IMG/VR virus record: IMGVR_UViG_3300047444_000331 | Coordinates: 1-24,026 of that record | DNA length: 24,026 nt | Source: a virus | Direction: 5' to 3' (one strand) | In this document: piece by piece, positions 4,622-20,400 of the stretch | Numbering within the stretch: position 1 is the first letter of the stretch | Layout of the letters: every line of letters begins with the position of its first letter | The notes under the pieces: model-generated | Seen by the model: only the letters and a program-made list of their open reading frames with translations | Told to the model about the DNA's origin: nothing | Databases searched by the model: none | Position numbers and translations under genes: made by a program

Positions 4622-4691
4622 GATTTCCTCACGCCCCTCTTCCTGATATAGTCACCAATGAGCGCCCTGCCCGGTTTGCTCACCTCAGAAA

Positions 4692-4725
4692 GAGGGAGGC
4701 TCAGTGCGTGAGCTGAGCCTCTCTC
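4692..4725 (-). terminator. Stem-loop between tail tube and chaperone genes
   Basis: GAGGGAGGCTCAG (4692-4704) pairs with CTGAGCCTCTCTC (4713-4725), 13 pairs with one G-T wobble and an 8-base loop. On the minus strand the stem is followed by TTTCT, a short U-rich tail, so it could be a leaky intrinsic terminator or attenuator after the highly expressed tube gene. The 164-base gap 4622-4785 holds this hairpin and the chaperone Shine-Dalgarno site; I see no convincing promoter in it. Confidence 0.6.
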
Positions 4726-4785
4726 GTTACTGCCATCATGGAATTGACTGCCAGCTGGTGCCTGCTACTGACTGCCGGAAGAAAA

Positions 4786-7850: not shown

Positions 7851-8330
7851 TCAGTGGCTTGTCGCCTGGATGTACCTCCGTGCGGCTGCGACTACTCTCT
7901 TCTCCACCGCCCGTGTCTGAGCCTTCGTCTTGGCGATGCTCTGCCGCTTTTTCACCTGGCAGTGCAAGTTCTTGGCGTGAGCCTTCGCATTCTTGTGAGC
8001 CGCCGTCTTCGCCTTCTTAGCGGCCTTGGCGGCTTTAGCCTTCGACGCATTGATCTTGATTGCGCGGCTGCCACCCGCTGACTTCACCTTGGAGTTGCGA
8101 GCGGTAGGTGATGTCTTACCTGCCGGCTTAGTTGCCTGCTTGGTAGCCGGCCGCGCACCCGGTTTCTTCGACGCCACTGCCGACGACCGCGCGCCGGCAG
8201 CCGCGTTGCGCTTGGCCGTCGAAGTACTCGCACGCTTGGTGTTATGCGCCTTCAGCTTCGCCTTGTGACTGCTGACCTTGCGCTTCTTCTTGGCTACCTT
8301 GCGCTTCGAGTGGTTGGCGCCACACGACAT
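7851..8330 (-). CDS. Highly basic Lys/Ala-rich histone-tail-like protein, 159 aa
   Basis: Most of the 159 residues are Lys, Arg, Ala, Ser and Thr: SKRKVAKKKRKVSSHKAKLKAH near the N terminus, KPGARPATKQATKPAGKT in the middle and SKAKAAKAAKKAKTAAHKNAKAHAK at about 95-119. Only two Cys (C3 and one near 123) and almost no acidic residues are present. The composition is like the C-terminal tails of histone H1 and actinobacterial HU proteins, so binding to nucleic acid is likely. It starts at ATG 8328-8330, immediately after the connector's TAG. Being translated with connector and neck genes suggests a virion or packaging role, though a host-directed role is possible. No established phage family is assigned. 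Confidence 0.7.
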   Translation of the reverse strand: MSCGANHSKRKVAKKKRKVSSHKAKLKAHNTKRASTSTAKRNAAAGARSSAVASKKPGARPATKQATKPAGKTSPTARNSKVKSAGGSRAIKINASKAKAAKAAKKAKTAAHKNAKAHAKNLHCQVKKRQSIAKTKAQTRAVEKRVVAAARRYIQATSH

Positions 8331-9290
8331 CTAGATCGTCCGCCTGAACGGGTTCAGGAGGAGCTCAGCCTCACCAGCGACGTCACTGGGCTCCTTCGCG
8401 CCTGTGCCGCCTGAGCCACCACCGCCGGGGATGGTCTGGATGGTGGTCGCCGTCGCACCTCGTGTCAGTGCGATGCTGGTGCAAAGGAGGATAGTCGCCC
8501 AGATGACGGACTGCGGCAACGTCGACACCATGACGCCGGCGTCGTGGTTGAACGTCAGCGGCGAAGCCAGCGTCAGCGTCCCCGGCCCCGCCGTTGCGGA
8601 GGCCGCGGTGACCTGGATGACTTCCTGCGCCCCACTGTCGTAGACGGTGCCGGTGGCACCGGTCACCAGCGTCGCCTCCGACTGGATGGCCCAGCCGGTG
8701 CAGTCATCGACCTGGATCTGAGTTGAGCCGGCGTTGACTCCCGCCGTCAGGCCGGTATGAGGCCAGCCATTGATGTAGCTGACTCGGACTAGGTAGCCCT
8801 GCCGGCCCAGACACCAGCTCGTGGTACCGGGCGCAAGCACGATCGACTGCCCGCCTTCGCCGGCGGAGCTTGGCGCGTTGGTCCCGTAGATTCCGATGGG
8901 AGGCCACTCGATGTCCCACATCCCTGACTGAAGGCTTCTCCACTGCCGTGGGAACACCGCGTTGGCAGCCACCTGGACGCTGAGGACCTGGAGGATAGGC
9001 CACCGCTGCAGGATCATCCGGGTGTTCCCGGTCCCGTTCTGGATGGTCATCCGGTAGTGAGGGCCGGAGTACTGCTCGTTGTCGACCGATGCGCGAAGCA
9101 CCTGGTTGCAGTACGCATCGACCTGTGAGGTGGCGCGCTGGCAGATGTTCGCCTGCTCGGCCAAGCGCATCTCGTAGGTGACGTCACGGCCCGGTGGGAT
9201 GGTCGACCAGCTGATCCCCGTCGGTGCCTGTGTCAGGATCTCCGGTGTGACATACGGCGTCAGCGGGCCGACGGGAAGGGGTACTGTCAC
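8331..9290 (-). CDS. Head-tail connector (adaptor) protein, 319 aa
   Basis: The N-terminal half looks like actinophage head-tail adaptor proteins: TPEILTQAPTGISW (15-28), a helical stretch with AEQANICQRATSQVDAYCNQVLRA (44-67), GPHYRM (76-81), MILQRWPILQVLSV (92-105), a PRQW segment and GYLVRVSYINGWPH (165-178). Residues about 187-260 are an inserted beta module (GSTQIQVDDCTGW, then LTLASPLTFNHDAGV) shared with two other proteins here. A C-terminal helix and a Gly-rich linker (about 289-296) follow. The role would be to attach to the portal ring and receive the tail. The GTG start at 9288-9290 is supported by GGAGG six bases upstream. The upstream part of its operon is interrupted by the plus-strand gene block starting at 9373. 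Confidence 0.75.
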   Translation of the reverse strand: MTVPLPVGPLTPYVTPEILTQAPTGISWSTIPPGRDVTYEMRLAEQANICQRATSQVDAYCNQVLRASVDNEQYSGPHYRMTIQNGTGNTRMILQRWPILQVLSVQVAANAVFPRQWRSLQSGMWDIEWPPIGIYGTNAPSSAGEGGQSIVLAPGTTSWCLGRQGYLVRVSYINGWPHTGLTAGVNAGSTQIQVDDCTGWAIQSEATLVTGATGTVYDSGAQEVIQVTAASATAGPGTLTLASPLTFNHDAGVMVSTLPQSVIWATILLCTSIALTRGATATTIQTIPGGGGSGGTGAKEPSDVAGEAELLLNPFRRTI

Positions 9291-9312
9291 ACCGCCTCCA
9301 GTGTGGAATAAT
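9284..9312 (+). promoter_or_regulatory. Predicted sigma70-type promoter with extended -10
   Basis: CTGTCA (9284-9289), a 17-base spacer and AATAAT (9307-9312) form a -35/-10 pair with 4/6 and 5/6 matches to consensus. TGG directly precedes the -10, an extended -10 element. It is placed to drive the small plus-strand genes from 9373. It overlaps the palindrome GGAAT-A-ATTCC (9305-9315), a possible operator. The -35 lies within the start of the divergent connector gene. Confidence 0.45.
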
Positions 9313-9372
9313 TCCGCAGTGCTGGTGGTTCTACCTAGCAGACGGGAACGACAGGGAAAAGGAACCGACCTG

Positions 9373-9516
9373 ATGAAGATGATTCACCGCGTCATCAAGG
9401 CCGCTGAGCACGTAGCCTTGGAGGCACTCCCCGTGCCGCACCCGGTAGTTTTCGCACTTCACACAGCCGTCATGATGGCGTCTGCAGTGGCGTATCACAA
9501 CTTCGCAGTAATGTAA
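9373..9516 (+). CDS. Small protein with a hydrophobic C-terminal segment, 47 aa
   Basis: The frame starts at ATG 9373, about eight bases after AAAAGGAA. It encodes a 47-residue protein with an amphipathic, basic start (MKMIHRVIKAAEHVALEAL) and a hydrophobic end (VVFALHTAVMMASAVAYHNFAVM) that could form one membrane helix. A longer in-frame reading beginning at 9178 would run antisense through the connector gene and is not credible. It is the first gene of a four-gene plus-strand run (9373-10102). I do not recognise a family. Membrane location is an inference from hydrophobicity alone. Confidence 0.5.
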   Translation: MKMIHRVIKAAEHVALEALPVPHPVVFALHTAVMMASAVAYHNFAVM

Positions 9517-9526
9517 GGGGAAGAGA

Positions 9527-9832
9527 ATGGAACTGATCGACACCAGCTACGGGACCGGCAGCCAGTCTGAGACGCTTACTCGCGTTTACCGCCATGCCGG
9601 CGGCGACCTCATCCAGGTGGTCGTTCACCACGACGCTTACAAGATGCAGTCCTACGCCGTCGCGAGTGTATTCGCGCATGACCGGTCAGGCTGGCAGGAG
9701 CTGGTGACCGCACCGGCTAGCACCTGGTTCGACCTCGTCGACCGCAGGGATGCTCAGACTCATCACCGCACCGCTGACCAGCTGGCCAAGCGGGCCGAAG
9801 TGGTCCTAGACGCAGCTCCGGAAGGGAAGTAA
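9527..9832 (+). CDS. Hypothetical phage protein, 101 aa
   Basis: The start at ATG 9527 has AGGGGAAGAG directly upstream. The protein reads as a compact alpha/beta domain: TRVYRHAGGDLIQVVVHHDAYKMQSYAVASVF forms a strand-rich core (about 18-49), followed by a Trp-containing turn (SGWQELVTAPASTWFDL) and a helical basic/acidic C terminus. The 'RVYRH.G...V.V..D.Y..QSYA' pattern is one I associate with small uncharacterised proteins of actinobacterial phages, but I cannot assign a function. No signal peptide or metal site is visible. It lies ten bases after the 47-aa gene and five before the next one, consistent with one operon. Confidence 0.65.
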   Translation: MELIDTSYGTGSQSETLTRVYRHAGGDLIQVVVHHDAYKMQSYAVASVFAHDRSGWQELVTAPASTWFDLVDRRDAQTHHRTADQLAKRAEVVLDAAPEGK

Positions 9833-9836
9833 GACG

Positions 9837-9968
9837 ATGGGCAGCCTGCTCGACCAGGTTCTGCAAGAAGTCGCCGACAGCAAGCACGACGCCGCGTGGG
9901 TGGACGAGATCCTCGACCAGCTCTTCGAGGAGAACCGGGACGAGATCCCGTGGAACGATGCCTCGTGA
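9837..9968 (+). CDS. Small acidic protein, 43 aa
   Basis: The frame starts at ATG 9837 (GGAAG about ten bases upstream at the end of the previous gene) and ends at TGA 9966-9968. The 43-residue product is acidic and wholly helical in appearance (LLDQVLQEVADSK, WVDEILDQLFEENRDEI). The stop overlaps the GTG start of the next gene (GTGA), a typical coupled arrangement. The family and function are not recognisable. The call rests on operon fit and compact spacing. Confidence 0.5.
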   Translation: MGSLLDQVLQEVADSKHDAAWVDEILDQLFEENRDEIPWNDAS

Positions 9969-10102
9969 AGTCCGCCGTGCAGCAAGTAGATGAGTGGCTC
10001 GCCGAAGCCGATTCAGATCAGCTGCGAGCTCTCATCAGCCACCTTACCGAGGGCAGCATAGAGGCAGCGGTGCTCGCCTACCAGTTCATCAGATCTAACT
10101 GA
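9965..10102 (+). CDS. Small helical protein, 45 aa
   Basis: GTG at 9965-9967 overlaps the previous stop by four bases (GTGA). The product MKSAVQQVDEWLAEADSDQL... is a helical acidic protein ending LAYQFIRSN at TGA 10100-10102. The same frame is open further upstream, to a GTG at 9896, but that would overlap the 43-aa gene extensively and is less likely. It is the last gene before the bidirectional hairpin at 10106-10146. No family is recognised. Confidence 0.5.
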   Translation: MKSAVQQVDEWLAEADSDQLRALISHLTEGSIEAAVLAYQFIRSN

Positions 10103-10105
10103 GAG

Positions 10106-10146
10106 AAGAGGCGCTCAGCCGTGAGCAGAGAGGCTGAGCGCCTCTT
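10106..10146. terminator. Bidirectional stem-loop terminator between convergent genes
   Basis: AAGAGGCGCTCAGCC (10106-10120) and GGCTGAGCGCCTCTT (10132-10146) form a perfect 15-pair stem with an 11-base loop. It lies between the stop of the plus-strand gene at 10102 and the stop of the minus-strand gene at 10151, so it can serve both. There is no long U-tract beyond the arms themselves; the outer base pairs AAGA/TCTT supply a short one on either strand. Confidence 0.75.
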
Positions 10147-10150
10147 GCTG

Positions 10151-10744
10151 TCAGCTGCTGAGTGACTGGATCAGGCTCTTCTTCGACTGAGCGGCGTCGA
10201 TGCCGCGCTCCTCGGCGATCCGGCGGAGCTCAGACACCGACATCCGTGAGAAGTCAGGTGGCGGGCTGCTGTCGCCCGTCTTCTTGGTGGGCGCCTGCTC
10301 CCACGTGTTCTGCGAGTCGGTTTGCGTGATGACTGGCGCATCATCAACCAGTACCATGCCGCACTCGGCGCAATACCGGCTGCTAGGCAGGTTGGCGTGA
10401 CCGCTCTTGCACAGCAGGGGCTGGACCGTCTCCTTCGGCCGGCTGAGCGTTCCCTCTCGCGAGATCCGCTCCAGCGCGAGGGCTGTGATCTCCTCGAGAC
10501 TGCGGTCCTTCTGCTTGACGAGGCTCTCACGCTTCGAGGTCTCGTCCGGTGTCTCCGGCACCGCATGCCGGGTTCCCGACCAGTGCGGGTCGTTGATGAG
10601 GTGACGTTCGCACTGCGGGCAGTTAAGCTCCCAGTTCAGATCCGGGGCACCGTGGGTCACCGGTCGCGTATGCGAGGCTCCACAGCCACCCTCAGCGGGG
10701 CTTACTGCGACGTAGACAACGTCCCGTCGCGGGTACAGGGTCAT
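10151..10744 (-). CDS. Zinc-ribbon protein with C-terminal SAP-like helix pair, 197 aa
   Basis: The N-terminal part has CGASHTRPV and NCPQCERHL (C21, C42, C45), and a second zinc-ribbon-like site lies at C112, H116, C125, C128 (CKSGHANLPSSRYCAECG). The last 30 residues (MSVSELRRIAEERGID...KSLIQSL) resemble a SAP or Rho-N-like helix-turn-helix that binds nucleic acid. The middle is a basic/acidic helix with HAVPETPDETSKRESL. The start ATG 10742-10744 is preceded by AGGGAGG at five bases. It is a minus-strand gene inside a block of plus-strand genes, so it could be read by late transcription from the right or from its own promoter. A regulatory or packaging-related role is possible; function is not assigned. 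Confidence 0.7.
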   Translation of the reverse strand: MTLYPRRDVVYVAVSPAEGGCGASHTRPVTHGAPDLNWELNCPQCERHLINDPHWSGTRHAVPETPDETSKRESLVKQKDRSLEEITALALERISREGTLSRPKETVQPLLCKSGHANLPSSRYCAECGMVLVDDAPVITQTDSQNTWEQAPTKKTGDSSPPPDFSRMSVSELRRIAEERGIDAAQSKKSLIQSLSS

Positions 10745-10761
10745 GCATTCCTCCCTAGGTG

Positions 10762-10790
10762 TTTACATTGATGAGATGTGCTGGTATGGT
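10762..10790 (+). promoter_or_regulatory. Strong sigma70-type promoter with extended -10
   Basis: TTTACA (10762-10767), exactly 17 bases, then TATGGT (10785-10790), with TGG immediately before the -10. The -35 has 5/6 and the -10 has 4/6 matches to consensus. It lies 33 bases before the ATG of the 55-aa gene and upstream of its AGGGAG site. It occupies the divergent gap (10745-10823) between that gene and the minus-strand zinc-ribbon gene. Confidence 0.65.
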
Positions 10791-10823
10791 CGTGGCTAAA
10801 GACGTGCATGAAGGGAGACTGAG

Positions 10824-10991
10824 ATGACTGAGATAACCGGGCGCCACGCTGTCTCATACCGAGGCAAGCACGAGAAGCCTGACAGCAGAGACGGTGAGAC
10901 GTACCGTGGGCGTCACCGCAAGCCCGTGTTCGAGGAGTGGCTTGACATCATTCGGCAAGAGCAGTTTCCTCGCCACACCGGGGGCAGGTAA
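10824..10991 (+). CDS. Small basic protein, 55 aa
   Basis: The ATG at 10824 follows AAGGGAGA by about six bases and the promoter at 10762-10790. The product (MTEITGRHAVSYRGKHEKPD... ending QEQFPRHTGGR) is rich in Arg, His and charged residues, with no membrane segment, Cys pair or recognisable family. Its last 44 bases overlap the 3' end of the convergent minus-strand gene 10948-11232. The combination of promoter, ribosome site and compact frame supports it, but its shortness leaves doubt. Confidence 0.5.
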   Translation: MTEITGRHAVSYRGKHEKPDSRDGETYRGRHRKPVFEEWLDIIRQEQFPRHTGGR

Positions 10992-11232
10992 GGCTCCAGC
11001 TGTTCCACAGCCGGCGGCAGGCACCGCACCAGCGTCCTGCCTTAGTGCCGAACGTCCAGCCCTCATTCAGGGAGAGCAGGCCGTTGTTGCTGCCTGTCCG
11101 TTTCGAGATGCTCATCTCTGCGGCATGGTGGTCGGCGATGCTGATGGCGGTACCCGGCTTGCCGGTGTACGTTGTGCCGTCGATCCTGGATGTCAGCCCG
11201 TTGCAGCCTAGCGGCAGCTTGACTCTCGGCAT
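10948..11232 (-). CDS. Zinc-ribbon hypothetical phage protein, 94 aa
   Basis: From ATG 11230-11232 (MPRVKLPLG), chosen because GAGG lies six bases upstream, the protein has a conserved-looking N-terminal half (NGLTSRIDGTTYTGKPGTAISIADHHAAEM) and a C-terminal four-Cys site C69-x2-C72-x10-C83-x2-C86 (WCGACRRLW ... CPRCG). The alternative start four codons upstream (11242-11244) is less well placed. This layout is familiar from small uncharacterised proteins of actinobacterial phages; function is unknown. The gene runs against the plus-strand 55-aa gene, overlapping it by 44 bases at the 3' ends. It belongs to the late-strand set, not to the plus-strand operons. Confidence 0.65.
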   Translation of the reverse strand: MPRVKLPLGCNGLTSRIDGTTYTGKPGTAISIADHHAAEMSISKRTGSNNGLLSLNEGWTFGTKAGRWCGACRRLWNSWSLTCPRCGEETALAE

Positions 11233-11248
11233 CTCACGCCTCACTGGG

Positions 11249-11277
11249 AATTAAGCAGCCGCAGCCGCAGTTATACT
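11249..11277 (+). promoter_or_regulatory. Weak promoter candidate for the 11311-13077 operon
   Basis: TATACT (11272-11277) is a good -10 (5/6), 33 bases before the ATG at 11311. The -35 at 17-base spacing is AATTAA, a poor match, and no extended -10 TG is present. It sits in the divergent gap between the 94-aa minus-strand gene and the plus-strand operon. Confidence 0.3.
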
Positions 11278-11310
11278 GAATGAAGGGAAACGGAAGAGAA
11301 GGGAACGAGA

Positions 11311-11460
11311 ATGCTGACCAAGGATCAGGCCGCAGCTCGCGCTTACGCATACCTGCTCGAGAATGAGCTGTACGACGCAGAGACGCTCGAGCAAGTCACC
11401 GACGACGAGCTGATCAGCTTCATGCAGTCCGAGGGGCAGGACCCGTACGCAGATGACTGA
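11311..11460 (+). CDS. Small acidic helical protein, 49 aa
   Basis: ATG at 11311 follows AGAAGGGA by about eight bases. The product (MLTKDQAAARAYAYLLENEL...) is acidic and helical, ending QDPYADD; the stop TGA at 11458-11460 is part of an ATGA overlap with the next gene. It resembles a short helical adaptor or regulator in composition only; no family is recognised. It opens the longest plus-strand operon in the window. Confidence 0.5.
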   Translation: MLTKDQAAARAYAYLLENELYDAETLEQVTDDELISFMQSEGQDPYADD

Positions 11461-11656
11461 TTTCAAGGCTGGCGACCGTATCCGCCTTGTCTTCACCGAT
11501 GACCCGCACACCAAACTGGAGCCAGGTGATACTGGCACGGTCATCAGCATCAGCAAGCCAACATCTATATCCCACAACGTCATCAACGTGAAGTGGGACA
11601 GCGGCAGCACGCTGAGCATGATCCCGGCTGCCGGAGACCGCATCGAGAAGATCTAG
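11453..11656 (+). CDS. DUF4314-like small SH3/KOW-type protein, 67 aa
   Basis: The sequence FKAGDRIRLVFTDDPHTKLE followed by PGDTGTVISI and VKWDSGSTLSMIPAAGDRIEKI fits the DUF4314 pattern: GDRxxLxxTDDPxTxLxPGDxGTV, then VxWDxGSxLxxIPGxD. It is a small beta-barrel-like domain common in actinobacterial phages and mobile elements; its function is unknown. The start overlaps the previous stop (ATGA), showing translational coupling. The motif match makes this one of the firmer family calls among the small genes. Confidence 0.8.
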   Translation: MTDFKAGDRIRLVFTDDPHTKLEPGDTGTVISISKPTSISHNVINVKWDSGSTLSMIPAAGDRIEKI

Positions 11657-11665
11657 GAGGCAGTC

Positions 11666-11911
11666 ATGGCGGAGAGCATCGTGCCGCCCATCGTGGAGAA
11701 GGCCTGCAAGCAGTGCGGTGAGCTTAAGCTCATGTACGCCGACCTGGCCATGTGCGATGACTGCATCGAGCCATTGCTGAGGATCATCTGGGGTGACGCC
11801 TACGACCGAGTGATCGGCCAGAAGGGTGTACTGCAGCCCATTCCATCGGCATCAGAGCCACCATCACGACCACAGAGAAACAACCGAGAGAGAAGGAGAA
11901 GGCATAAGTGA
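11666..11911 (+). CDS. Small zinc-finger-like protein, 81 aa
   Basis: The ATG at 11666 has AGGAGG five to ten bases upstream, just after the previous TAG. The N-terminal half has two CxxC pairs, C14-x2-C17 (CKQC) and C30-x2-C33 (CDDC), suggesting a zinc-binding fold. A helix follows (IEPLLRIIWGDAYDRVIG), then a disordered basic tail ending RERRRRHK. It overlaps the lipoprotein start by four bases (GTGA at 11908-11911). The family is not recognised; nucleic-acid or protein binding is possible. Confidence 0.65.
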   Translation: MAESIVPPIVEKACKQCGELKLMYADLAMCDDCIEPLLRIIWGDAYDRVIGQKGVLQPIPSASEPPSRPQRNNRERRRRHK

Positions 11912-12576
11912 AATTTAAGTCGGCGATCTTCGCCACTGCCGCACTGGCAGCGGTGGCGGGGAGTGCGGCACTCACTGGGTGTGGTGCGAGTGGCGGCAGC
12001 TACGATCACGCCCCCATGGCCGCTTATGGCCAGAACAACCAGTGCTACTACATCTACAACCCCGCGGAGGCAGCGGCGCTTGAGGCGCAAGGCCTTTGCG
12101 ACCCGAGCTGGGCCGCAGTGCGAGCGCCGGCAAGCTGGCTGGACGAGTATTACTACTACTACGACTCGCCGCTGTACTACAGCACATTCGTGCCGTCGCA
12201 GTACCGGACGGCCTACGTCAGGTCGTACGGGCCGAACTCCACGTTCTACCGTAGCAACCGGTCGGCCATCACCCGGCTGTCGAGCAGGGCCACCTACTAC
12301 AGCACCACGGGAGCCAAGGTCACCCACGTCACCGGCACCAGCCGGTTCGGGAGTGGCAGCTCATTCGGCAAGGCCGGCCAGACCTACGGTGGCGGTGGCC
12401 TGCGGCAGCGGACGGTCACGACGAACGGGCCAACGGCTCAGTCAACGTCACGCAGCAGCACAGTCAACATCCCCGGCACCAGTGGGTATAAGCCGACTGC
12501 CACACCGCCTGCCAAGCCGAAGTCAACCTTCGGCGGCGGATCACTACGCAAGACTTGCACGAAGAAGCCGTGCTAG
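11908..12576 (+). CDS. Secreted lipoprotein, Tyr-rich, 222 aa
   Basis: Residues 1-25 form a lipoprotein signal: MKFK basic start, an Ala-rich hydrophobic stretch and lipobox LTGC with C25 as the lipidated residue. The mature protein has a Tyr-rich segment (NNQCYYIYNP at about 43-52, then DEYYYYYDSPLYYSTF at 79-94) and a low-complexity C terminus rich in Ser, Thr, Gly and Pro (FGSGSSFGKAGQTYGGGG ... KPKSTFGGGSLRKTC). The GTG start overlaps the upstream stop and has AAGGAG nine bases before it. The product would be anchored outside the host membrane, which fits a superinfection-exclusion or host-surface 'moron' role, but no family match proves this. Next gene begins directly at its stop. Confidence 0.75.
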   Translation: MKFKSAIFATAALAAVAGSAALTGCGASGGSYDHAPMAAYGQNNQCYYIYNPAEAAALEAQGLCDPSWAAVRAPASWLDEYYYYYDSPLYYSTFVPSQYRTAYVRSYGPNSTFYRSNRSAITRLSSRATYYSTTGAKVTHVTGTSRFGSGSSFGKAGQTYGGGGLRQRTVTTNGPTAQSTSRSSTVNIPGTSGYKPTATPPAKPKSTFGGGSLRKTCTKKPC

Positions 12577-13077
12577 ATGGAGCACAGCCTCTTCGGCGCA
12601 TGGGCGGAGACGGCTGAGCGGTTCGCCGATGTCTTCGACGGCTCGGATTCCCGGGCCGTCGAGGCGTCTGCTCAGCAGATGGCCAGAGAAGCCGGCGGCA
12701 CCCTCTGGGTATGCCGCGTCTTCCGCGACGTCCACGTCCCAGTCGACACCTACACAAAGTTCATCGACCCGCGTGATGAACGGAACCTGGAGATCGAGGA
12801 CATCGAGCTCGATGTTCCCGACTTCCTGCACGACCACCCCCAGTGGCTGGTGCTTGGGTTCGCCTTGCCCAAGGGCGTGCCTATCGGGCACCCAGAGTTC
12901 GGCTGGACAGCTGAGCGGTATTCGGAATCTGTCTACGCACCATCCCCCCTGACCGCTGAGGATGCAGCACGCAGCCGCCTGGAGGACAAGGGTGCTGACT
13001 TTCTCGTTTGCTCAGTGCTGCCTGACTCGCCAGTGGCAGCCGACACCTACGCGAAATTCGCTGACTCAAACCGCTAG
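12577..13077 (+). CDS. Hypothetical protein, 166 aa
   Basis: ATG at 12577 directly follows the lipoprotein stop, with no clear ribosome site, so coupling to the lipoprotein gene is likely. The protein has an apparent internal repeat: GGTLWVCRVFRDVHVPVDTYTKFID (about 40-64) resembles the C-terminal GADFLVCSVLPDSPVAADTYAKFAD. This suggests two copies of a small fold. A Trp/His-rich middle (DFLHDHPQWLVLGFALPKG) separates them. No signal, membrane segment or catalytic motif stands out. It ends at TAG 13075-13077, just ahead of a strong hairpin. Function is unknown. Confidence 0.65.
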   Translation: MEHSLFGAWAETAERFADVFDGSDSRAVEASAQQMAREAGGTLWVCRVFRDVHVPVDTYTKFIDPRDERNLEIEDIELDVPDFLHDHPQWLVLGFALPKGVPIGHPEFGWTAERYSESVYAPSPLTAEDAARSRLEDKGADFLVCSVLPDSPVAADTYAKFADSNR

Positions 13078-13078
13078 C

Positions 13079-13119
13079 AGCTGAAGGCGCCGGAGGCTCG
13101 CACTCCGGCGCCTTCAGCT
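13079..13119. terminator. Bidirectional stem-loop at end of plus-strand operon
   Basis: AGCTGAAGGCGCCGGAG (13079-13095) and CTCCGGCGCCTTCAGCT (13103-13119) form a perfect 17-pair stem with a 7-base loop. It sits between the plus-strand stop at 13077 and the minus-strand gene 13114-13407, whose stop codon (13114-13116) lies inside the right arm. No U-tract follows on either strand, so termination may rely on the stem or another factor. Confidence 0.7.
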
Positions 13120-13407
13120 TGCTGTAGAGATAACCCAGTTGATGACGGCAGGCGTAGCCGTGCCGGCTCCGCGAACCCAGATCTGCTCCCCCGTAGAACC
13201 CGGGAAGCAGTTGATGGTGACAGCAGCACCGTTATTCAGAGTGAACCCGCTGACGCTGTTCGCGGTAGCGCTGCCGTTGGAGCCACCGCTGATGTAAGCC
13301 GGGGTCCCGCCTGAGTTGCTGATCGTCACCGAGCATGCCCCCGGTGGGATGATGAAGGCAGCTGATGCCGTCGCCGTCCCCGTTGAAGACTGCCCAAACG
13401 TGATCAC
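13114..13407 (-). CDS. Small beta-module protein (capsid decoration candidate), 97 aa
   Basis: The 97 residues are nearly all Ser, Thr, Gly, Ala, Ile and Val with alternating beta-like pattern: FIIPPGACSVTISNSGGTPAYISGG (about 18-42), FTLNNGAAVTI (55-65) and IWVRGAGTATPAVINWVIS (76-94). These match the module in the 128-aa and 177-aa neighbours (vxNxG, aYIGG, LpxGxxxti, lWaxxsaGt). It starts at GTG 13405-13407, one base after the previous stop, with GGGGAC upstream. Three such proteins behind the capsid gene point to virion surface decoration, by position and fold type only. Confidence 0.65.
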   Translation of the reverse strand: MITFGQSSTGTATASAAFIIPPGACSVTISNSGGTPAYISGGSNGSATANSVSGFTLNNGAAVTINCFPGSTGEQIWVRGAGTATPAVINWVISTAS

Positions 13408-13408
13408 C

Positions 13409-13942
13409 TTACGTCGTCCCCACGTTGACGTTGAGGTTGGTGCCAGACTGAGCGGTGATGGTCGTCACCGTGGCGCTGGCGTTGTGGTCGTACAGCAGCG
13501 GTGCCGACAGCGTGATCACCGTGCCGCTGGTGATTGTCGCGAAGGTGATGAACTCCTGCGCTGATCCCGCGCCCAGTGCCACCGTGCTGCCGGTGCCGAA
13601 TGACGCCACCGACCCAGCGAACGTCAGCGCCGTGCCACCAGCGGTGCCTGCGACTGAGATTGACGTCGATGGTGTCCCCGTCACAACACCGCCGCCGCAG
13701 CCCCAGATCGAGAAGTTGGCATTCGGCAATGTGATCTGCGCCCCCGGCGGCAGTGGGAATCCGCTTGACGGGGTCACGGAGCTGCCGCCGATGTAGGCGA
13801 AGCTCGACCCATTGTTGAAGATCACCGCGTGAGGTGTGCCGACGACCGCGGGGTTGTAGATCTTCGTGATCGGTGACTGAGCTGTGACAGGCGGGTCGAC
13901 GCCGGTAGAGGGTGAGCTGTGAGAGCCCTTAGGTGCCGCCAT
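13409..13942 (-). CDS. Two-module beta protein (capsid decoration candidate), 177 aa
   Basis: A Pro/Ser-rich leader (1-25) is followed by beta module A at about 39-80 (VIFNNGSSFAYIGGSSVT, FPLPPGAQITL, FSIWGCGGG). Module B lies at about 100-163 (AGGTALTFAG, then GSAQEFITFATITSGTVITLSAPLLYDHNASATVTTITA). Module A recurs in its two neighbours and in the 180-aa protein at 370-912; module B recurs in the connector and the tail tube protein. The start ATG 13940-13942 has AAGGAGA seven bases upstream. No enzyme motif is present. It is likely exposed on the capsid, but this is inferred from its position and composition. Confidence 0.7.
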   Translation of the reverse strand: MAAPKGSHSSPSTGVDPPVTAQSPITKIYNPAVVGTPHAVIFNNGSSFAYIGGSSVTPSSGFPLPPGAQITLPNANFSIWGCGGGVVTGTPSTSISVAGTAGGTALTFAGSVASFGTGSTVALGAGSAQEFITFATITSGTVITLSAPLLYDHNASATVTTITAQSGTNLNVNVGTT

Positions 13943-13975
13943 AGCGGTTCTCCTTCAGAGTCGCGCTAGAGAGGG

Positions 13976-14362
13976 TTAGTCCACTGCCACGACGGTGGCG
14001 AGACCCGCCTCGATGCTGGTCGTGCCCGCGGATGTGATGGCCCACAGGTTGAAGTTCGAGCTCGTGGCGCTGACCACCGCGGTGCCCTGGATCGTCAGCT
14101 GGAAGCCCGCAGGCAGAGCCAGGCTGGACGTGGTGGGGGTACCCGCGCTGCCGATGAAGGCGGTCGCGGTGCCGGTGTTGATGACGGTCAGGTTGCTCAG
14201 GATCGCACTCGCCGGGAAGGCGTAGAACGCGGTGCCCGCAGAGGTCACGACCGTGGCGCTGCCGGCGTTGTAGACCTGGACACCAGCCGCGGCGGTGCCG
14301 ACTGAGGTGCCAGCCGCCTGAGTGGACTGGAAAGCAGGCGGCGCCCCGTTGAAGATTGCCAT
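13976..14362 (-). CDS. Small beta-module protein (capsid decoration candidate), 128 aa
   Basis: Residues 1-57 are Ala/Thr/Ser-rich beta (MAIFNGAPPAFQSTQ, VQVYNAGSATVVT) and residues about 58-117 carry the shared module (LTVINTGTATAFIGS, LALPAGFQLTI, FNLWAITSAGTTSI). The start ATG 14360-14362 follows AAGGG and overlaps closely with the end of the glycosyltransferase gene. It is the first of three paralogous genes in a row. Ser/Thr richness and the adjacent sugar-transfer genes make it a plausible target of glycosylation; no direct evidence is visible. Confidence 0.7.
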   Translation of the reverse strand: MAIFNGAPPAFQSTQAAGTSVGTAAAGVQVYNAGSATVVTSAGTAFYAFPASAILSNLTVINTGTATAFIGSAGTPTTSSLALPAGFQLTIQGTAVVSATSSNFNLWAITSAGTTSIEAGLATVVAVD

Positions 14363-14364
14363 AA

Positions 14365-15072
14365 TTACCCTTTCAAGTGAGGGTCAGGACTGACCCGCTT
14401 TTTCCGAAGCAGCTTCTGTACCTTGGCCACATCGGTGTCCATCTTGTCGTGCCGCCAGGCTTGGTACGCCTGAGCATCTTCTGAGCCATACCGCTCAGTC
14501 TGCTGGTAAACCGTGTCGTACGCCGTGCTGGAGGTGACTGAGTAATGGTGATGAGGGATCAGCACACTTGAGCACAGCTTCAGGCAGCCCGCGTGCCTGC
14601 CGATGTCTGCCCAGGTGTTGTCGTTGTAGTAGTGCCTGAGCGTGGGCTGTGCGAACCAGCCCAGGGCCCTGACGATGTCTGTCGACACCAGCCAGTGCTC
14701 GGGGATGTCATTCCGTCGCCCGTTCTCCGGGTACAAGATGCCGGTGCCGCCCATGGCCTCGAGCTCAGCCATCATGATGCGGTCCCAGTCCTGCGTCTCG
14801 AAGACGCAGTCGTCACCCACGAAGAACAGCGCCTTGTAGTCAGGTGCCTGCTCATGTGCGACGGCATTCAGCTTGGCACCGAGCGGCAGCCAGTCGAGCA
14901 TCATGTGGCCGCGGACGCCTTCCGGCAGGATGATCCCGTCGTAGGAATTGTCATCCACGTCATGGATGAAAAGCATCTCCGCGTCGGCGGTCTTCTCCGC
15001 GAAGGAGGCAGTGCACCGGATGGCGTTCTCACGCCGGCCGCGAGCCGGCAGCAAGACCAGGAGGTCGCTCAC
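14365..15072 (-). CDS. GT-A-type glycosyltransferase, 235 aa
   Basis: The N terminus LLVLLPARGRREN resembles the first strand and P-loop-like start of family-2-like glycosyltransferases. The segment ALFFVGDDCVFETQDWD (81-97) gives the D-D metal/nucleotide-sugar motif (D87, D88) followed by the usual Trp. A later block (WLVSTDIVRALGWFAQP; HYYNDNTWADIG; LIPHHHYS) matches the acceptor-side part and a metal-binding His cluster (about 174-176). It transfers a sugar from an activated donor to an unknown acceptor. The GTG start overlaps the cytidylyltransferase stop (GTGA, 15069-15072), so the two are made together. The C terminus is basic (LLRKKRVSPD). Confidence 0.75.
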   Translation of the reverse strand: MSDLLVLLPARGRRENAIRCTASFAEKTADAEMLFIHDVDDNSYDGIILPEGVRGHMMLDWLPLGAKLNAVAHEQAPDYKALFFVGDDCVFETQDWDRIMMAELEAMGGTGILYPENGRRNDIPEHWLVSTDIVRALGWFAQPTLRHYYNDNTWADIGRHAGCLKLCSSVLIPHHHYSVTSSTAYDTVYQQTERYGSEDAQAYQAWRHDKMDTDVAKVQKLLRKKRVSPDPHLKG

Positions 15073-15485
15073 TCAGCCCGCTCCAGGACTCGCCGGCGGA
15101 TCTCCGTCGTTGAGATCGACATCGCCTGGACGTAGGGGACGTAGGCCAGGATGATCTTCTGCTCATCCAGCCAGTCCTGCGTCACGTCGATCTGAGCCAG
15201 GTAATCCTTCCGGGCCCAGTCTGACCCAATCGCCAGCACACTCGGCCGGACGCTGGCGATCAGCTCTCGCCCGGCTGAGGTGTTGAGCTGAGCTGAATAG
15301 CCGAACTGCCTGATGGAGTGCAGCCGCTCAGCCTGCGTCATGATAGGTGCCGGCTTGAACAACTGGACGAACTCGTCTGAGTTGACGCCGACCACGAGGC
15401 CGGAGCCGAGCTGTTCGCACTGCCGCAGGAAGGCGATGTGCCCGAAGTGAAGGATGTCGAAGGTGCCGATGGTCAGGACTCTCAC
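15069..15485 (-). CDS. TagD-type cytidylyltransferase, 138 aa
   Basis: MRVLTIGTFDILHFGHIAFLR contains the nucleotidyltransferase signature GTFDxxHxGH (G7-H16), and SISTTEIRRRV (123-133) is the C-terminal ISTTxI motif of the glycerol-3-phosphate/ethanolamine-phosphate cytidylyltransferase group. Length (138) fits these single-domain enzymes. They use CTP to activate a phosphorylated small molecule, releasing pyrophosphate; the substrate here cannot be told. The start GTG 15483-15485 has AAGAAGGG about eight bases upstream. It lies after the capsid gene and its hairpin, and is translationally coupled to the glycosyltransferase, so a virion- or host-surface-modifying pathway is the natural guess. 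Confidence 0.85.
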   Translation of the reverse strand: MRVLTIGTFDILHFGHIAFLRQCEQLGSGLVVGVNSDEFVQLFKPAPIMTQAERLHSIRQFGYSAQLNTSAGRELIASVRPSVLAIGSDWARKDYLAQIDVTQDWLDEQKIILAYVPYVQAMSISTTEIRRRVLERAE

Positions 15486-15512: not shown

Positions 15513-15547
15513 CCCGGCAGGAGAAGCGCAGGGGCACTCCTGCCGGG
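15513..15547 (-). terminator. Stem-loop after the major capsid gene
   Basis: CCCGGCAGGAG (15513-15523) pairs perfectly with CTCCTGCCGGG (15537-15547), 11 pairs with a 13-base loop. It lies 15 bases past the capsid stop in the minus-strand direction and is followed by TGAGCTTTCCC, so it has only a weak U-tract. It may partly terminate or stabilise the capsid message. Confidence 0.55.
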
Positions 15548-15562: not shown

Positions 15563-17398
15563 TTACGCGTATGGAGTGGTGTCCGACACCTGCAGGCCCT
15601 GGAGGATGCCAGAGTACTGCGGTGCGTGCGCCACCATGGCGCCGAACATGAAGATGGAGTAGCGGTAGGTGGCGTCGATGACCGGCCAGGCGATGGACAC
15701 GTAGTCCTGCACCATGGTCATCTCCCAGGCGTTGGCCACGTTCGACCACGTCTGCGGAAGCTGGTAGGTCATGAACAGGGCGGTGCCCTGAGTCAGCCAC
15801 GGGTGGACGACGAGCTTCAGGATCGACCGGGTGATCGGGTTCTGGAACTCGCTGACGGCGGCACCGACGGTCACGCCGTTGACGTCGCCCTGGTCGAGGA
15901 ACAGCCGGTAGTTCGTAGCCGAGCCCTGGCTGATCACGTCGTTCGAGAGGCGCATGATGTCGCCACCGTCACCGACGATCTCGCCCGGGTCAGCCTTGAA
16001 GGCACCGGGGTTGTTGCTGCTCGGGTTCTCCCACAGGGCGTCCAGCGCCGTGTAGATCGCCGCGTAGCTGAGGTGAGTGCCCACGTTCTGGTTGACGTAG
16101 CCACCCTGCCACGGTGACGGGTAGACGCCGGAGGCGCTCGACTTGCCGGTGAGGACGGGGACGATGCCCTCCATCCGGTTCGCCGAGCCGGTGCCGGTGT
16201 CCACCGTCGGCGGGTGAGTCGCCGGGGCGGCCAGGGTCAGCACGCCCTGGATGGTGAACCGGAGGCCACCAACACCCGAAGCGACCTTCCACAGCTGCGC
16301 GTTGGTCGGTGACGCGGCGTTCTCCGACACGTAGATGTTGTAGGACATCGCGCCGGGAACCGGGACGATGGTGACATCGACCACATTGGTGGTGCCGACG
16401 GTGGTGATGTCGGTCGACACCGCCGAGTTGAGCGTCTCACCCCAGTAGTTGACCGCGGTGACGGCCACGACGAAGTGAGCCGGAGAGCCACCGATCGCGG
16501 TCTCGTTGCTGCCGGCGGTACGCAGCGTGGTGGTGACCTGAGCCGGAGTCGCCAGGCTGGTGCTCGTCGCGGCGATCATCTGGTACTCCTCGCCCATCAT
16601 CATCTCCTGGAGGAGGATGAGGTTCGCGAGTGCCGAGATGTCCTCGAAGCCTTGGCCGGCGAACTGAGCCAGCCAGGACAGCTGCTCAGTGAGGCCGAAG
16701 AACTTGTAGGGGATGTTGAGCTGAACCTCGGTCTGGCTGCCGGAGCCAGGGAGGTTCAGCGGCCAGGTGCCGAAGTTGCCACCGGTCTGGACAAGCTCAG
16801 GAATCGAGATGTCCACGACACTCTGGCCGCCGGTCTGCGAGCCGGAGATGCCGGTGAACACCCGCTCGATGCGGCTGGTGCCCTGGCCCGGAGGCCGAGG
16901 CAGCTTGTTCCTGAAGACTGTGTAGACCGGGTAGATGAGCCGGCTCGGAGCCAGGAGGTCGAACGGCACGAGGCCGTAGATGCTCCCGATGCCCAGGTTG
17001 CCCGCGGTGAAGCTTCTCACCAGGTCGGGGCTGACCGCCCCGAGTGCCTGAGCGACTTGCTCATTGATCGACGGAGTCGACAGCGCGGTCTTGAGGTACC
17101 CGTGCTGGTCGAGGAAGGTGGGGTTGAGCCCCTTGACGACGGAGGCCCGGTCCGCGTAGCCGCGGTAGGTCTCGGTGCGAAGGTCCAGGGTCGCCTGGTG
17201 AGCCTTCGTCATGATCTGAGTCTCGTTGTTCAGCGGCGTGTTGCCGTTGCCAACGTAGCCAGCGCCCTTGACCATTGAGGTCATGCGAGCCTTCAGCATG
17301 TCGCCGGTACGGGAGTACCGGTTCGCTTCGGCCGCAGCCTGGCTCGCGACCTGGGCCGGCGCCGCTGGCGCGTCCAGATCGGGAAGCATTGCTGCCAT
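15563..17398 (-). CDS. Major capsid protein (HK97-fold candidate) with fibronectin-III-like insertion, 611 aa
   Basis: It directly follows the protease/scaffold gene, the standard position for the major capsid protein. Support: a long helical N-terminal arm (about 10-90), SYNSYGLVPFDLLAP-like segment at 138-150 (IYGLVPFDLLAP), a basic/aromatic strand with LIYPVYTVFRNKLPRPPGQG, an ISIPELVQTGGNFGTWPL stretch, and a C-terminal half ending WEMTMVQDYVSIAWPVIDATYRYSIFMFGAMV. Residues about 284-386 read as a fibronectin-III-like domain: HFVVAVTAVNYWGETLNS, then VPVPGAMSYNIYVSENAA. This would be a surface insertion, extending a length of about 350-450 usual for the family. The start ATG 17396-17398 has AGGAGA seven bases upstream. 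The fold call is from position and pattern, not alignment. Confidence 0.75.
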   Translation of the reverse strand: MAAMLPDLDAPAAPAQVASQAAAEANRYSRTGDMLKARMTSMVKGAGYVGNGNTPLNNETQIMTKAHQATLDLRTETYRGYADRASVVKGLNPTFLDQHGYLKTALSTPSINEQVAQALGAVSPDLVRSFTAGNLGIGSIYGLVPFDLLAPSRLIYPVYTVFRNKLPRPPGQGTSRIERVFTGISGSQTGGQSVVDISIPELVQTGGNFGTWPLNLPGSGSQTEVQLNIPYKFFGLTEQLSWLAQFAGQGFEDISALANLILLQEMMMGEEYQMIAATSTSLATPAQVTTTLRTAGSNETAIGGSPAHFVVAVTAVNYWGETLNSAVSTDITTVGTTNVVDVTIVPVPGAMSYNIYVSENAASPTNAQLWKVASGVGGLRFTIQGVLTLAAPATHPPTVDTGTGSANRMEGIVPVLTGKSSASGVYPSPWQGGYVNQNVGTHLSYAAIYTALDALWENPSSNNPGAFKADPGEIVGDGGDIMRLSNDVISQGSATNYRLFLDQGDVNGVTVGAAVSEFQNPITRSILKLVVHPWLTQGTALFMTYQLPQTWSNVANAWEMTMVQDYVSIAWPVIDATYRYSIFMFGAMVAHAPQYSGILQGLQVSDTTPYA

Positions 17399-17454: not shown

Positions 17455-20400
17455 TTACAGGCCACGCATCTTGCAGATTGCCGTCCAGGCAGCTTCCCGC
17501 TGCGCCGGGTCGGGTGAGTAGCGGAACTGCTCTTCCAGTTCCTTCATAACCATGACCTGAGTCCGCTCCGCGATCTCGGTCATGGACGGCATTCCCGCCG
17601 GGACTGCCGAAGCTTGTGGTGCGTACTGCGGTGGTGCCGGAGGCGTCATGGCGACGCCCTTCCAGGCACTGACGCGGGGGTCGGGGCCCTCTTCCAGGGC
17701 ACTGAACCTGTCCTCGTAGCTGTTGACGCGCTTGCGAAGCCGCTTGATCTCTGACATGAGATCCGTGGTGGCTTCCTCAACCGCTTCCATGACCGCGGCC
17801 TTGATGACGTCGGCGGACACGCCTGCCTCACCAGCTACGGCAGCCTTGGTGATCGTGTCATCAGCCGGGGCCTGGGCCTTAAGGATCTCATCGCGAGCAT
17901 CCTCTATGGTCATCTGGCCCTTCAGGACGAGCTTCTCGAGCCGCCCGACGAGATCGGTGACATCCACGCGCCGCTTCGCCTTCTTGGTCTTCCGCGCCGG
18001 TGCGAGCTCGTCAGCCTTCACCGCGTCGGGGACAGGGTTATCTGGACCTGACTGCTGCCCGCCCATCGGGCACAGGTCCGGGAATGTCTGAGCGATGTGA
18101 TCGTGCATCGCCTTCATCGCCTGCCGAGCGTTGTCGCGCTGCGCATTGGTGTAGAACCGGCGGCTGGCGTTGCTCGGCCGGCCGGCCGGGCCGGTGATCA
18201 TGTCCCCGCTGCCGGCCTTCATGCTCGGCACGTCTGGGCTAATCGGCGCGCCACCGAAGCCCTGCGAGTGAAGAGGTGCCGGGATCGAGTGACTGCTCGG
18301 TGAGTTGGCGGCGTGGCCGGCGGTCAGGTAACCGCGGCCGAACGAGGACGCGCTGATCTGGCCAGCAGGGACAGGGCCGGAGTTAGGCCCATCGTGCCCC
18401 GGCGATGGTGCGGCGTGGCCGGTGGTAAGGTACGGCCGGCTGAAGCGGCCCGGCGTGAATGGCGACTGCGGCGTCAGCCCCTGGCCAGGACCGGGATTCG
18501 CGTCACTGAAGGCCTTGTTCGCCTCGAGCTTGATGTCGAGGATGAGCTCAGGCTCAGCTGTCTTGAGGCAGATGGCCGCATCCCAGAGGTCCTGCGCCTT
18601 GATCGCATCAGCGATGGGAGCCGTCGCCGCCATGTCCATGGCGATGCGCTGCCACTCACTCGTGTCGATGAGGTCGGCGAGTGAGGCGTGGGGGTGGCTC
18701 TTCTGCGCCGCATCCGGCTCGAATGCCGGGCAGGTGAGGTCGTGGAGCGCCCCCAGCGAGGAGCTGACGCCGATGGCGCGGTGCCTCTTGGCCGTCTTCA
18801 TCTCGTAGTTCGAGTCCGGGTCCGTCGGCAGGCCGGCGTCGTGCTCGAAGTCCTCGATGTACGGGCCATCAGGCTCGCGGTGCTCAGGCACAGGCTCCGT
18901 GCCGTGGCCAACGGTCGGCTTGGCCGCCTTCATGTAGCTGGTTGGCTTGCCGTCGAGTGTGACGTGAGTCGCCTCGGAGACGGGCTTCTCATCACCGGCG
19001 AGTGACTTAGCGGGTGGTGACTCCTTGGGCTGCTTCTTGCCCTTCTTCTTCGGCCCGCCGGGAAGGATCTTCCGTCCCTTGGACGCCTTCTCGTCATCCT
19101 CGTCGTCGTCCGAGTCGTCCTTGCCGGAGTCCTCGTCCTCGTCGTCGTCACCAGCGGCTGGCTTCTTCTTCAGCCACGGCGGCATGGAGCCCTTGGCGGC
19201 GTCCAGGCCCTCATCCATGCCCTCGCCACTGTGGTGTGTGCCGGTGCCGTCATCCGAGTCGTCGTCACCATCCTCGTCGGCATCGGCGTCAGCGTCGGCG
19301 TCTTTGCCCTTGCCATCGTCCTTCTCAACGAGGCCTTCCAGGATCGCCTCACGGACGGCGTCACGCTCTGCCTTGCGCTGCGCCTTCTCAGCGGCGGCCT
19401 TCTCAGCCGCGGCCTCACCGGCACCCATGTTCCCGCTGCCCTTGCACTTCGGGCAGGTGACGTGGCCCTCACGGATCTTCCCGCTGCCGGTGCACAGCCG
19501 GCACGGAGGCGCGCCATCACTCTTCTCCGCCTCGGGCTCAGGGTCACTCTTCTTGCCGCTGCTGCCGTGGCAGTCAGGGCAGGTGACGTGACCTTCACGG
19601 ATCTTGCCGGAGCCACCGCACAGCTTGCAGCCATCACCGCCGTCGTCCTTCATCAGCAGCTGAGGCTGCTCATCCGCCTTCAGGCTCGGAGGCAAGTCGT
19701 CATCTCCCATTCCGAATTTCCGCTGCGCGATTGACCGGATCCGAGCCCGGACCGCACCGGGGTCGTCTGCGTGGTGAGCCAGGCTGGCAGCATCACTGAC
19801 GTCATCACGTGTCTTGATGGGGTAGGTCTTGCCGGGGCCAGCGAAGTCATCATCACTGACATCAGACACATCGCGGCCGCCGGAGTCGACGACGCGGCCG
19901 TCTTCGAGCTGCCGCTTCTCAACCGTGGGCCGCTTGCTCTTCAGGATCTTCTCGAGATCTGTCGGTGAGAACGAGATCTCGACGTCTTCAGGGAGCTCGA
20001 GGGTGATGATGCCGACGACTCCCTCACTCTTCTCGACCTCTTCCACCGACATGCCTGCCGCCTTGGCGACGACGTCACTGGCGCCGAAGACCTTGCCGCT
20101 GTACTCGGGATGGCCGTCGCTGCCAGCCGCCTTCACCAGCTGGATTCCGCAGTTTTTATTCGCCGGCCTGTCTACCAGGCTGATCTCCACGATCTGGCCG
20201 CCAGTGATGCGCCCACCGCGCGCAACGTTATCACGGACGATGACTGGCTTGGCGATGCCGACGCTGTAGGCCCGGAGTGCCCCCTTCGACACCAGGCGCT
20301 TGGCGACGGGCTCGATCACCAGGCTCTTCACCCACTGGCTGCCATCCGGCCCCGGCTCAGCGGACATCCCCACACCCGCTGGGTCACGCTGCGGGTTGTG

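Follow-up and report, generated by a model that had tools for sequence, protein, structure and literature searches.

Reverse-facing accessory cassettes at three successive junctions of the late operon in an uncultivated tailed phage

IMG/VR record IMGVR_UViG_3300047444_000331 is an uncultivated tailed phage, and the stretch of it analyzed here, referred to as the window, comprises 24,026 bases. Its late genes lie on the minus strand and include the capsid gene (15563-17398), the decoration-like stretch (13114-14362), the connector-like gene (8331-9290) and the tail genes down to the tape measure gene (931-3555); 'capsid', 'decoration' and 'connector' are labels given by position and by a preliminary description of the sequence. 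Between the decoration and connector genes the strands run plus, minus, plus, minus, plus (9373-10102, 10151-10744, 10824-10991, 10948-11232 and 11311-13077). This five-block alternation is as given in the preliminary description, which took the whole 3.8 kb as one accessory island. Here we describe the plus-strand blocks as three cassettes, C, B and A in the order of the coordinates, together with their promoters, their hairpins and their distribution among relatives.

The relatives are 54 loci found by scanning viral contigs with the capsid protein, and genes were matched to them by tblastn. The minus-strand gene 10948-11232, encoding 94 amino acids with a C-terminal zinc motif, is matched in 45 of the 54, and the other nine loci are contigs ending within 3.5 kb after the capsid gene. 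Gene 10151-10744 (minus strand; 197 amino acids, with a zinc motif and a C-terminal SAP domain scoring 26.1 bits against a cut-off of 23.9) is matched in 41. Both are on the capsid strand in every match, and the order is capsid, decoration, 10948 gene, 10151 gene, connector. Cys 69, 72, 83 and 86 of the 94-amino-acid protein are invariant in 10/10 aligned members, and its predicted structure has a mean predicted local distance difference test (pLDDT) score of 70.5; the alignment of 11 members of the 10151-10744 family likewise has invariant cysteines. The junctions between the core genes are closed or nearly closed in many relatives, with the core order kept. By sequence comparison, both minus-strand genes are core genes of the late operon and not cargo. 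Since they are core, a single 3.8-kb island is ruled out, and what lies here is three separate reverse-facing cassettes at three successive junctions, one of them where kin have a core gene.

Cassette A (11311-13077, plus strand) is situated between the decoration gene 13114-13407 and the core gene 10948-11232. Its five genes have predicted products of 49 amino acids, 67 amino acids (DUF4314), 81 amino acids (a small zinc protein), 222 amino acids (a lipoprotein with an LTGC lipobox) and 166 amino acids (unknown); the DUF4314 gene (11453-11656) matches its family at E 1.7e-11. Cassette B (10824-10991, plus strand) is a possible frame of 55 amino acids behind the strongest promoter of the region; it is of doubtful coding status, with a codon score of -3.8 and an overlap of 44 bases with the core gene on the other strand, and may not be a gene. 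Cassette C (9373-10102, plus strand) holds four small genes (47, 101, 43 and 45 amino acids) at the position of a zinc-ribbon core gene in relatives. When the plus-strand genes were compared with the 54 relatives, the sole match was a DUF4314 gene in L025, reverse-facing at the same junction; L025 is the nearest relative of the window on the connector tree. The guanine plus cytosine (GC) content of the cassette genes is only slightly shifted, 61.1 percent versus 63.9 percent in the core genes. The comparison with the 54 relatives supports the plus-strand genes as accessory.

Negative codon scores, found for frame 11666-11911 as well as for frame 10824-10991, and the overlap of the latter with a core gene would fit a region that is no more than a longer spacer of the late operon with mostly spurious plus-strand frames. 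Six frames, starting at 9527, 9837, 11311, 11453, 11908 and 12577, nevertheless reach scores of 13 to 51, their antisense frames being poor, and both DUF4314 and a lipobox protein with Streptomyces phage relatives are present, so that this explanation is most improbable.

The cassette A lipoprotein (11908-12576) has counterparts in Streptomyces phages, Muntaha for one, with 36 to 38 percent identity over half its length, and there the gene is found among small genes near a transfer RNA (tRNA) and an Lsr2-like gene. No relatives of the lipoprotein were found in viral contigs. From the lipobox alone, it is probably an envelope or superinfection-exclusion protein. Another reverse-facing lipoprotein-like gene is present in the late region of L029 (15826-16770, minus strand), between the capsid and decoration genes.

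Two perfect hairpins, one of 15 pairs at 10106-10146 and one of 17 pairs at 13079-13119, are located at the convergent ends of cassettes C and A, respectively, and are proposed as bidirectional terminators. No other perfect stem of at least 12 pairs exists in the window, 12 dinucleotide shuffles yielded none, and folding of the two gave z values from -5.6 to -7.5, whichever strand was used. The terminator scan listed at the cassette C end only a shorter, different stem (10112-10127). At the third convergent end (10824-10991 / 10948-11232) no hairpin was found; the two hairpins of the preliminary description are thus real, and they close two of the three convergent ends. In four relatives, perfect stems of 10 or more pairs were counted in 8/26 convergent gaps, 9/311 co-directional gaps and 0/27 divergent gaps, with median gap lengths of 81 bases for convergent versus 12 for co-directional gaps, which favors that contrast, and 95 for divergent gaps, which are of like length. 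This phage group tends to have hairpins at convergent ends, and they would be expected to terminate transcription. An 11-pair perfect hairpin (15513-15547) just after the capsid gene is perhaps an attenuator.

Promoters had also been read for the plus-strand genes. The reading is strong for cassette B and only moderate for cassettes C and A. The cassette B promoter (10762-10790, plus strand; TTTACA-17-TATGGT with TG before the -10 element) stands 33 nucleotides before the ATG at 10824. The exact motif TTTAC-N15-17-GGTATRNT is found once in the window, with 0.00 occurrences expected and none in 100 shuffles, and under a matrix built without it the site scores 28.3, versus a best of 16.5 in 20 shuffles. 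Upstream of cassette C there is a weaker promoter-like site (9284-9312, plus strand; CTGTCA-17-AATAAT with TGTGG before the -10 element; p 0.15, matrix score 8.4), and upstream of cassette A a weak one (11250-11277, plus strand; TATACT at 11272-11277, 33 nucleotides before the ATG at 11311; p 0.076, matrix score -0.6). A generic promoter scan of the window gave two sites versus 0.9 expected, which is not clearly above chance.

The cassette B motif is of a phage-wide class. Besides the site in the window there are 21 exact sites in 8 of 50 relatives' records, and in 9/9 genomes, the window included, every exact site is on the strand that does not carry the capsid gene. Among control patterns, the backwards motif was found 0 times in 50 records, the permuted motif 0 times in 16 records and its permuted-backwards form once. 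In four records, 24/26 matrix sites scoring 20 or more are on the strand opposite the capsid gene and 23/26 lie within 50 nucleotides of the next gene; the matrix was built from sites in the same records, and these counts are a description and not an independent test. The strand opposite the capsid gene carries genes for DNA polymerase A, helicase, thymidylate synthase and methylase (G031, G014), and some sites of the class precede genes in the replication-gene block. By its motif and strand, cassette B uses the promoter class common to the early, replication-strand genes. A scan of 19 regions in the core-ward direction gave no enriched late promoter before the next core gene; the promoter scan missed the promoter of L024, where the caller had placed the gene start too late. 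The second-best match to the early-type promoter in the window, with a score of 15.1 (best of 20 shuffles 16.5), is at 4624-4652 (plus strand) in a gap between tail genes; it is followed by a strong hairpin at about 4690-4730 and by no clear gene, and is perhaps an empty cassette, a small RNA or a chance occurrence.

Most relatives have, between the 10151 gene and the connector gene, a small gene rich in paired cysteines, whose pattern is that of a zinc ribbon. A model built from 34 of these genes matches 43/49 distinct loci, the 34 seeds included and nine duplicate loci dropped beforehand. The gene was not found by the model in L025, L040, L049, L068, L083, L089 or the window, nor in the whole records of L029 and L040. 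L025, L040, L068 and the window, all without this gene, have reverse-facing genes in its place. It is absent in five of the seven carriers of reverse-facing genes at the junction versus 3/44 non-carriers (Fisher p 0.00045, kin not being independent), and because of this difference we regard cassette C as having probably replaced the zinc-ribbon gene. The plus-strand genes were also considered as remnants of the missing gene; this was rejected, as the best match of the model in the window is no better than E 0.22.

In a tree of 48 connector proteins, reverse-facing inserts occur in 14/19 members of one clade (support 100/98) and in 2/29 proteins outside it. Tree labels were set by hand, and L029, whose locus stops before the connector, was left out. 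The gene caller used for the relatives was home-made, and some short genes were missed. At the cassette B junction, eight relatives have in common a reverse-facing gene family that is RecE-tail-like: of three members scanned, two have weak matches to the tail of a RecE-like family (E 1.5e-5 and 1.6e-4), and the gene of L026, below the score filter, was counted by eye. At this junction the window has the promoter, followed by a short, unrelated frame with a poor codon score; there was no protein match, and we rejected the view that cassette B is what remains of the RecE-tail-like gene. The comparison with relatives suggested in the preliminary description, for the same genes at the same place, had a divided outcome: the cassette genes of the window were not so found except for DUF4314 in L025, and the RecE-tail-like family recurs at one and the same junction in the eight relatives, with promoter-like sites before several of its genes.

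The distribution bears on whether the reverse cassettes with their hairpins are mainly a timing device that throttles late transcripts between the decoration, zinc and connector genes and so sets protein dosage, the small genes being secondary. The hairpins do sit at convergent ends, and in cassette B the strongest promoter precedes a frame whose coding value is doubtful. Many relatives, however, including the whole sister clade of 17 (which holds L004 and L055), have the same late genes without any reverse-facing gene at these junctions, and the frames of cassettes A and C are mostly positive in codon score, one of them with a Pfam match. We regard a mainly regulatory role as very unlikely.

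Classical lysogenic morons, that is, cargo expressed from the prophage for the benefit of the host and independently of phage functions, would likewise carry their own promoter and hairpin signals, and a lipoprotein without relatives in viral contigs, together with small genes of unknown function, would suit them. Among 24 large relatives, on the other hand, a tyrosine integrase over the cut-off was found in five and a resolvase in two, and neither was found over the cut-off in the near kin L029, L040, L024 and L004, whose records may be incomplete; in nine further kin, where a resolvase was not sought and records may again be incomplete, tyrosine integrase was found in 0/9. The window itself is a fragment, and an integrase may lie outside it. 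In the genome collection the only capsid relative is L064 (PMZA01000074.1), a short contig of an Armatimonadetes metagenome-assembled genome (MAG) with an uncertain host link; the host of the phage is likely actinobacterial. The base composition close to that of the core genes and the promoter class of replication-strand genes also speak against lysogenic morons, which we consider unlikely; lysogenic cargo is not favored here because no integrase was found in the nearest kin and because the promoter class is that of the replication-strand genes. Of the earlier 'moron' interpretation, the plus-strand genes stand as putative accessory genes with signals for independent transcription, best seen for cassette B, and the minus-strand zinc proteins, being core, drop out.

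We think it likely that three accessory cassettes from the early (replication) strand occupy adjacent junctions of the late operon and face against it. The divergent gap behind each cassette would hold a sigma-70-type promoter from which the host RNA polymerase transcribes it, and for cassette B at least this promoter is of the class that serves the early-strand genes of the phage group. The convergent hairpin would terminate transcription from both sides or, failing that, prevent the late genes from being read in antisense from the cassette. With the cassette facing against the operon and its promoter directed away from the neighboring late gene, the cassette could be switched on early without the virion genes. 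Cassette genes would be swapped freely and the landing junctions re-used, and at cassette C the small zinc-ribbon core gene was probably lost in the exchange.

Several observations weigh against this interpretation. The promoters of cassettes A and C are weak, and that of A is outside the phage-wide class; 42/50 relatives' records are without an exact site, two matrix sites in relative G030 are on the late strand, and promoter scores in the cassette-ward direction have p under 0.05 in only 8/19 regions (core-ward 2/19). Neither hairpin in the window has a T run, and late transcription, too, would be interrupted ahead of the following core gene if a strong hairpin acted in both directions. Same-strand inserts are found at these junctions in L016, L018, L044 and L050, so that the reverse orientation is not obligatory, and L051 and L077 keep the zinc-ribbon gene beside reverse-facing genes. 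Early timing, termination, insulation and the functions of the genes are what we infer; the layout, the core status of the minus-strand genes, the absence of the zinc-ribbon gene, the promoter class with its strand bias and the enrichment of hairpins are observed. A wider proposal, which we put forward as speculative and rather unlikely, is that in one clade a dispersed early regulon has colonized the late operon: cassettes with a shared promoter would settle repeatedly at fixed junctions of virion genes and could replace a gene of the virion operon outright, and orientation and hairpins would act as timing insulation for adding early genes without disturbing the late program.

The connector-labeled gene (8331-9290, minus strand), on the far side of cassette C, is matched in 40/54 relatives and has no PHROG or Pfam family match. 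Adjoining it is a gene for a Lys/Ala-rich, histone-like protein of 159 amino acids (7851-8330, minus strand) that is matched in 0/54 relatives. The capsid gene matches a PHROG family of unknown function and, distantly, a phage protein that carries the annotation major head protein. A near-DNA search of the named-phage collection gave no DNA similar to the window, the capsid protein has only distant matches in named phages (25.6 percent identity at best, across most of the protein), and an Rfam search of the window gave no match. Directly after the capsid gene are glycosyltransferase and cytidylyltransferase-like genes (14365-15485, minus strand), which are same-strand accessory genes; the glycosyltransferase is matched in 6/54 relatives and the cytidylyltransferase-like gene in 0/54. 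Upstream of the capsid gene, 17455-21309 (minus strand) encodes a protein of 1284 amino acids that matches proteases weakly, has zinc repeats of the DnaJ type and contains long stretches of low complexity. The capsid gene of the window is uninterrupted; those of L025, L026, L029, L030, L040, L044, L046-L049, L051, L056 and L078 are interrupted by about 250-1380 nucleotides at a few recurrent places, near residues 137-166, 228-262 and 558-583. Among six loci scanned, Rfam called group I introns in L026, L029 (two) and L030.

The arrangement would illustrate a way for a phage to take up early genes within the operon that is most conserved: they are set against it, behind the early promoter of the phage, with a hairpin at their end. 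Early genes could be sought by means of the promoter pattern in a phage group for which no cultured member was found. Telling core zinc proteins encoded in the head region apart from true cargo matters for the annotation of uncultivated phages.

The PeSL (promoter-stem-loop) cassettes of T4-like phages, as Arbiol (2010) and Comeau (2014) are said to have described them, have an early promoter directly joined to a stem-loop. By that definition, the present cassettes differ, with promoter and hairpin at opposite ends and 0/27 divergent gaps having a perfect stem of 10 or more pairs. PeSL promoter-stem-loop elements are linked with gene shuffling in T4-like phages (PMC4503421). In Arthrobacter phages of cluster AL many genes are inserted among the virion genes, also between capsid and tail genes, and in this the window is similar; reverse orientation or promoters are not described in the available portion of that report (PMC5513430). 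The morons of lambdoid phages (PMC1524935) are additional genes inserted where two genes are direct neighbors in related phages, with promoter and terminator-like signals on their flanks. The cassettes resemble them in their place between such neighbors; as to flanking signals, the promoter is strong for cassette B and weak for A and C, and the hairpins stand at C and A, neither with a T run, with none at B. The cassettes differ in a composition nearly that of the core genes instead of a distinct one, in a promoter of the phage's own early class, in standing several side by side, all against the operon, and in the lack of a sign of lysogeny in near kin. A literature search gave Cluster O, cluster AL and the T4 work as precedents and no paper on the present phage group. 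In the mycobacteriophages of Cluster O (Corndog and kin), up to four small reverse-facing gene groups interrupt the virion operon, one such gene has a SigA-like promoter, and the reverse strand is also that of a long non-structural block, as stated in the available sections of the source (PMC4351075). The layout is, on that account, already known from Cluster O: the window too has small reverse-facing gene groups in the virion operon and a sigma-70-type promoter, a likeness of layout only and not of kinship. Searches of named phages with the window DNA and the capsid protein, the only kinship comparisons made, listed no Cluster O phage. Loss of a core gene at an insertion point and clade-wide re-use of neighboring junctions are not described for Cluster O in those sections (PMC4351075). 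To the known layout are added here one promoter class common to cassettes and replication-strand genes, the re-use of neighboring junctions within a clade and, at one such junction, the loss of a core gene.

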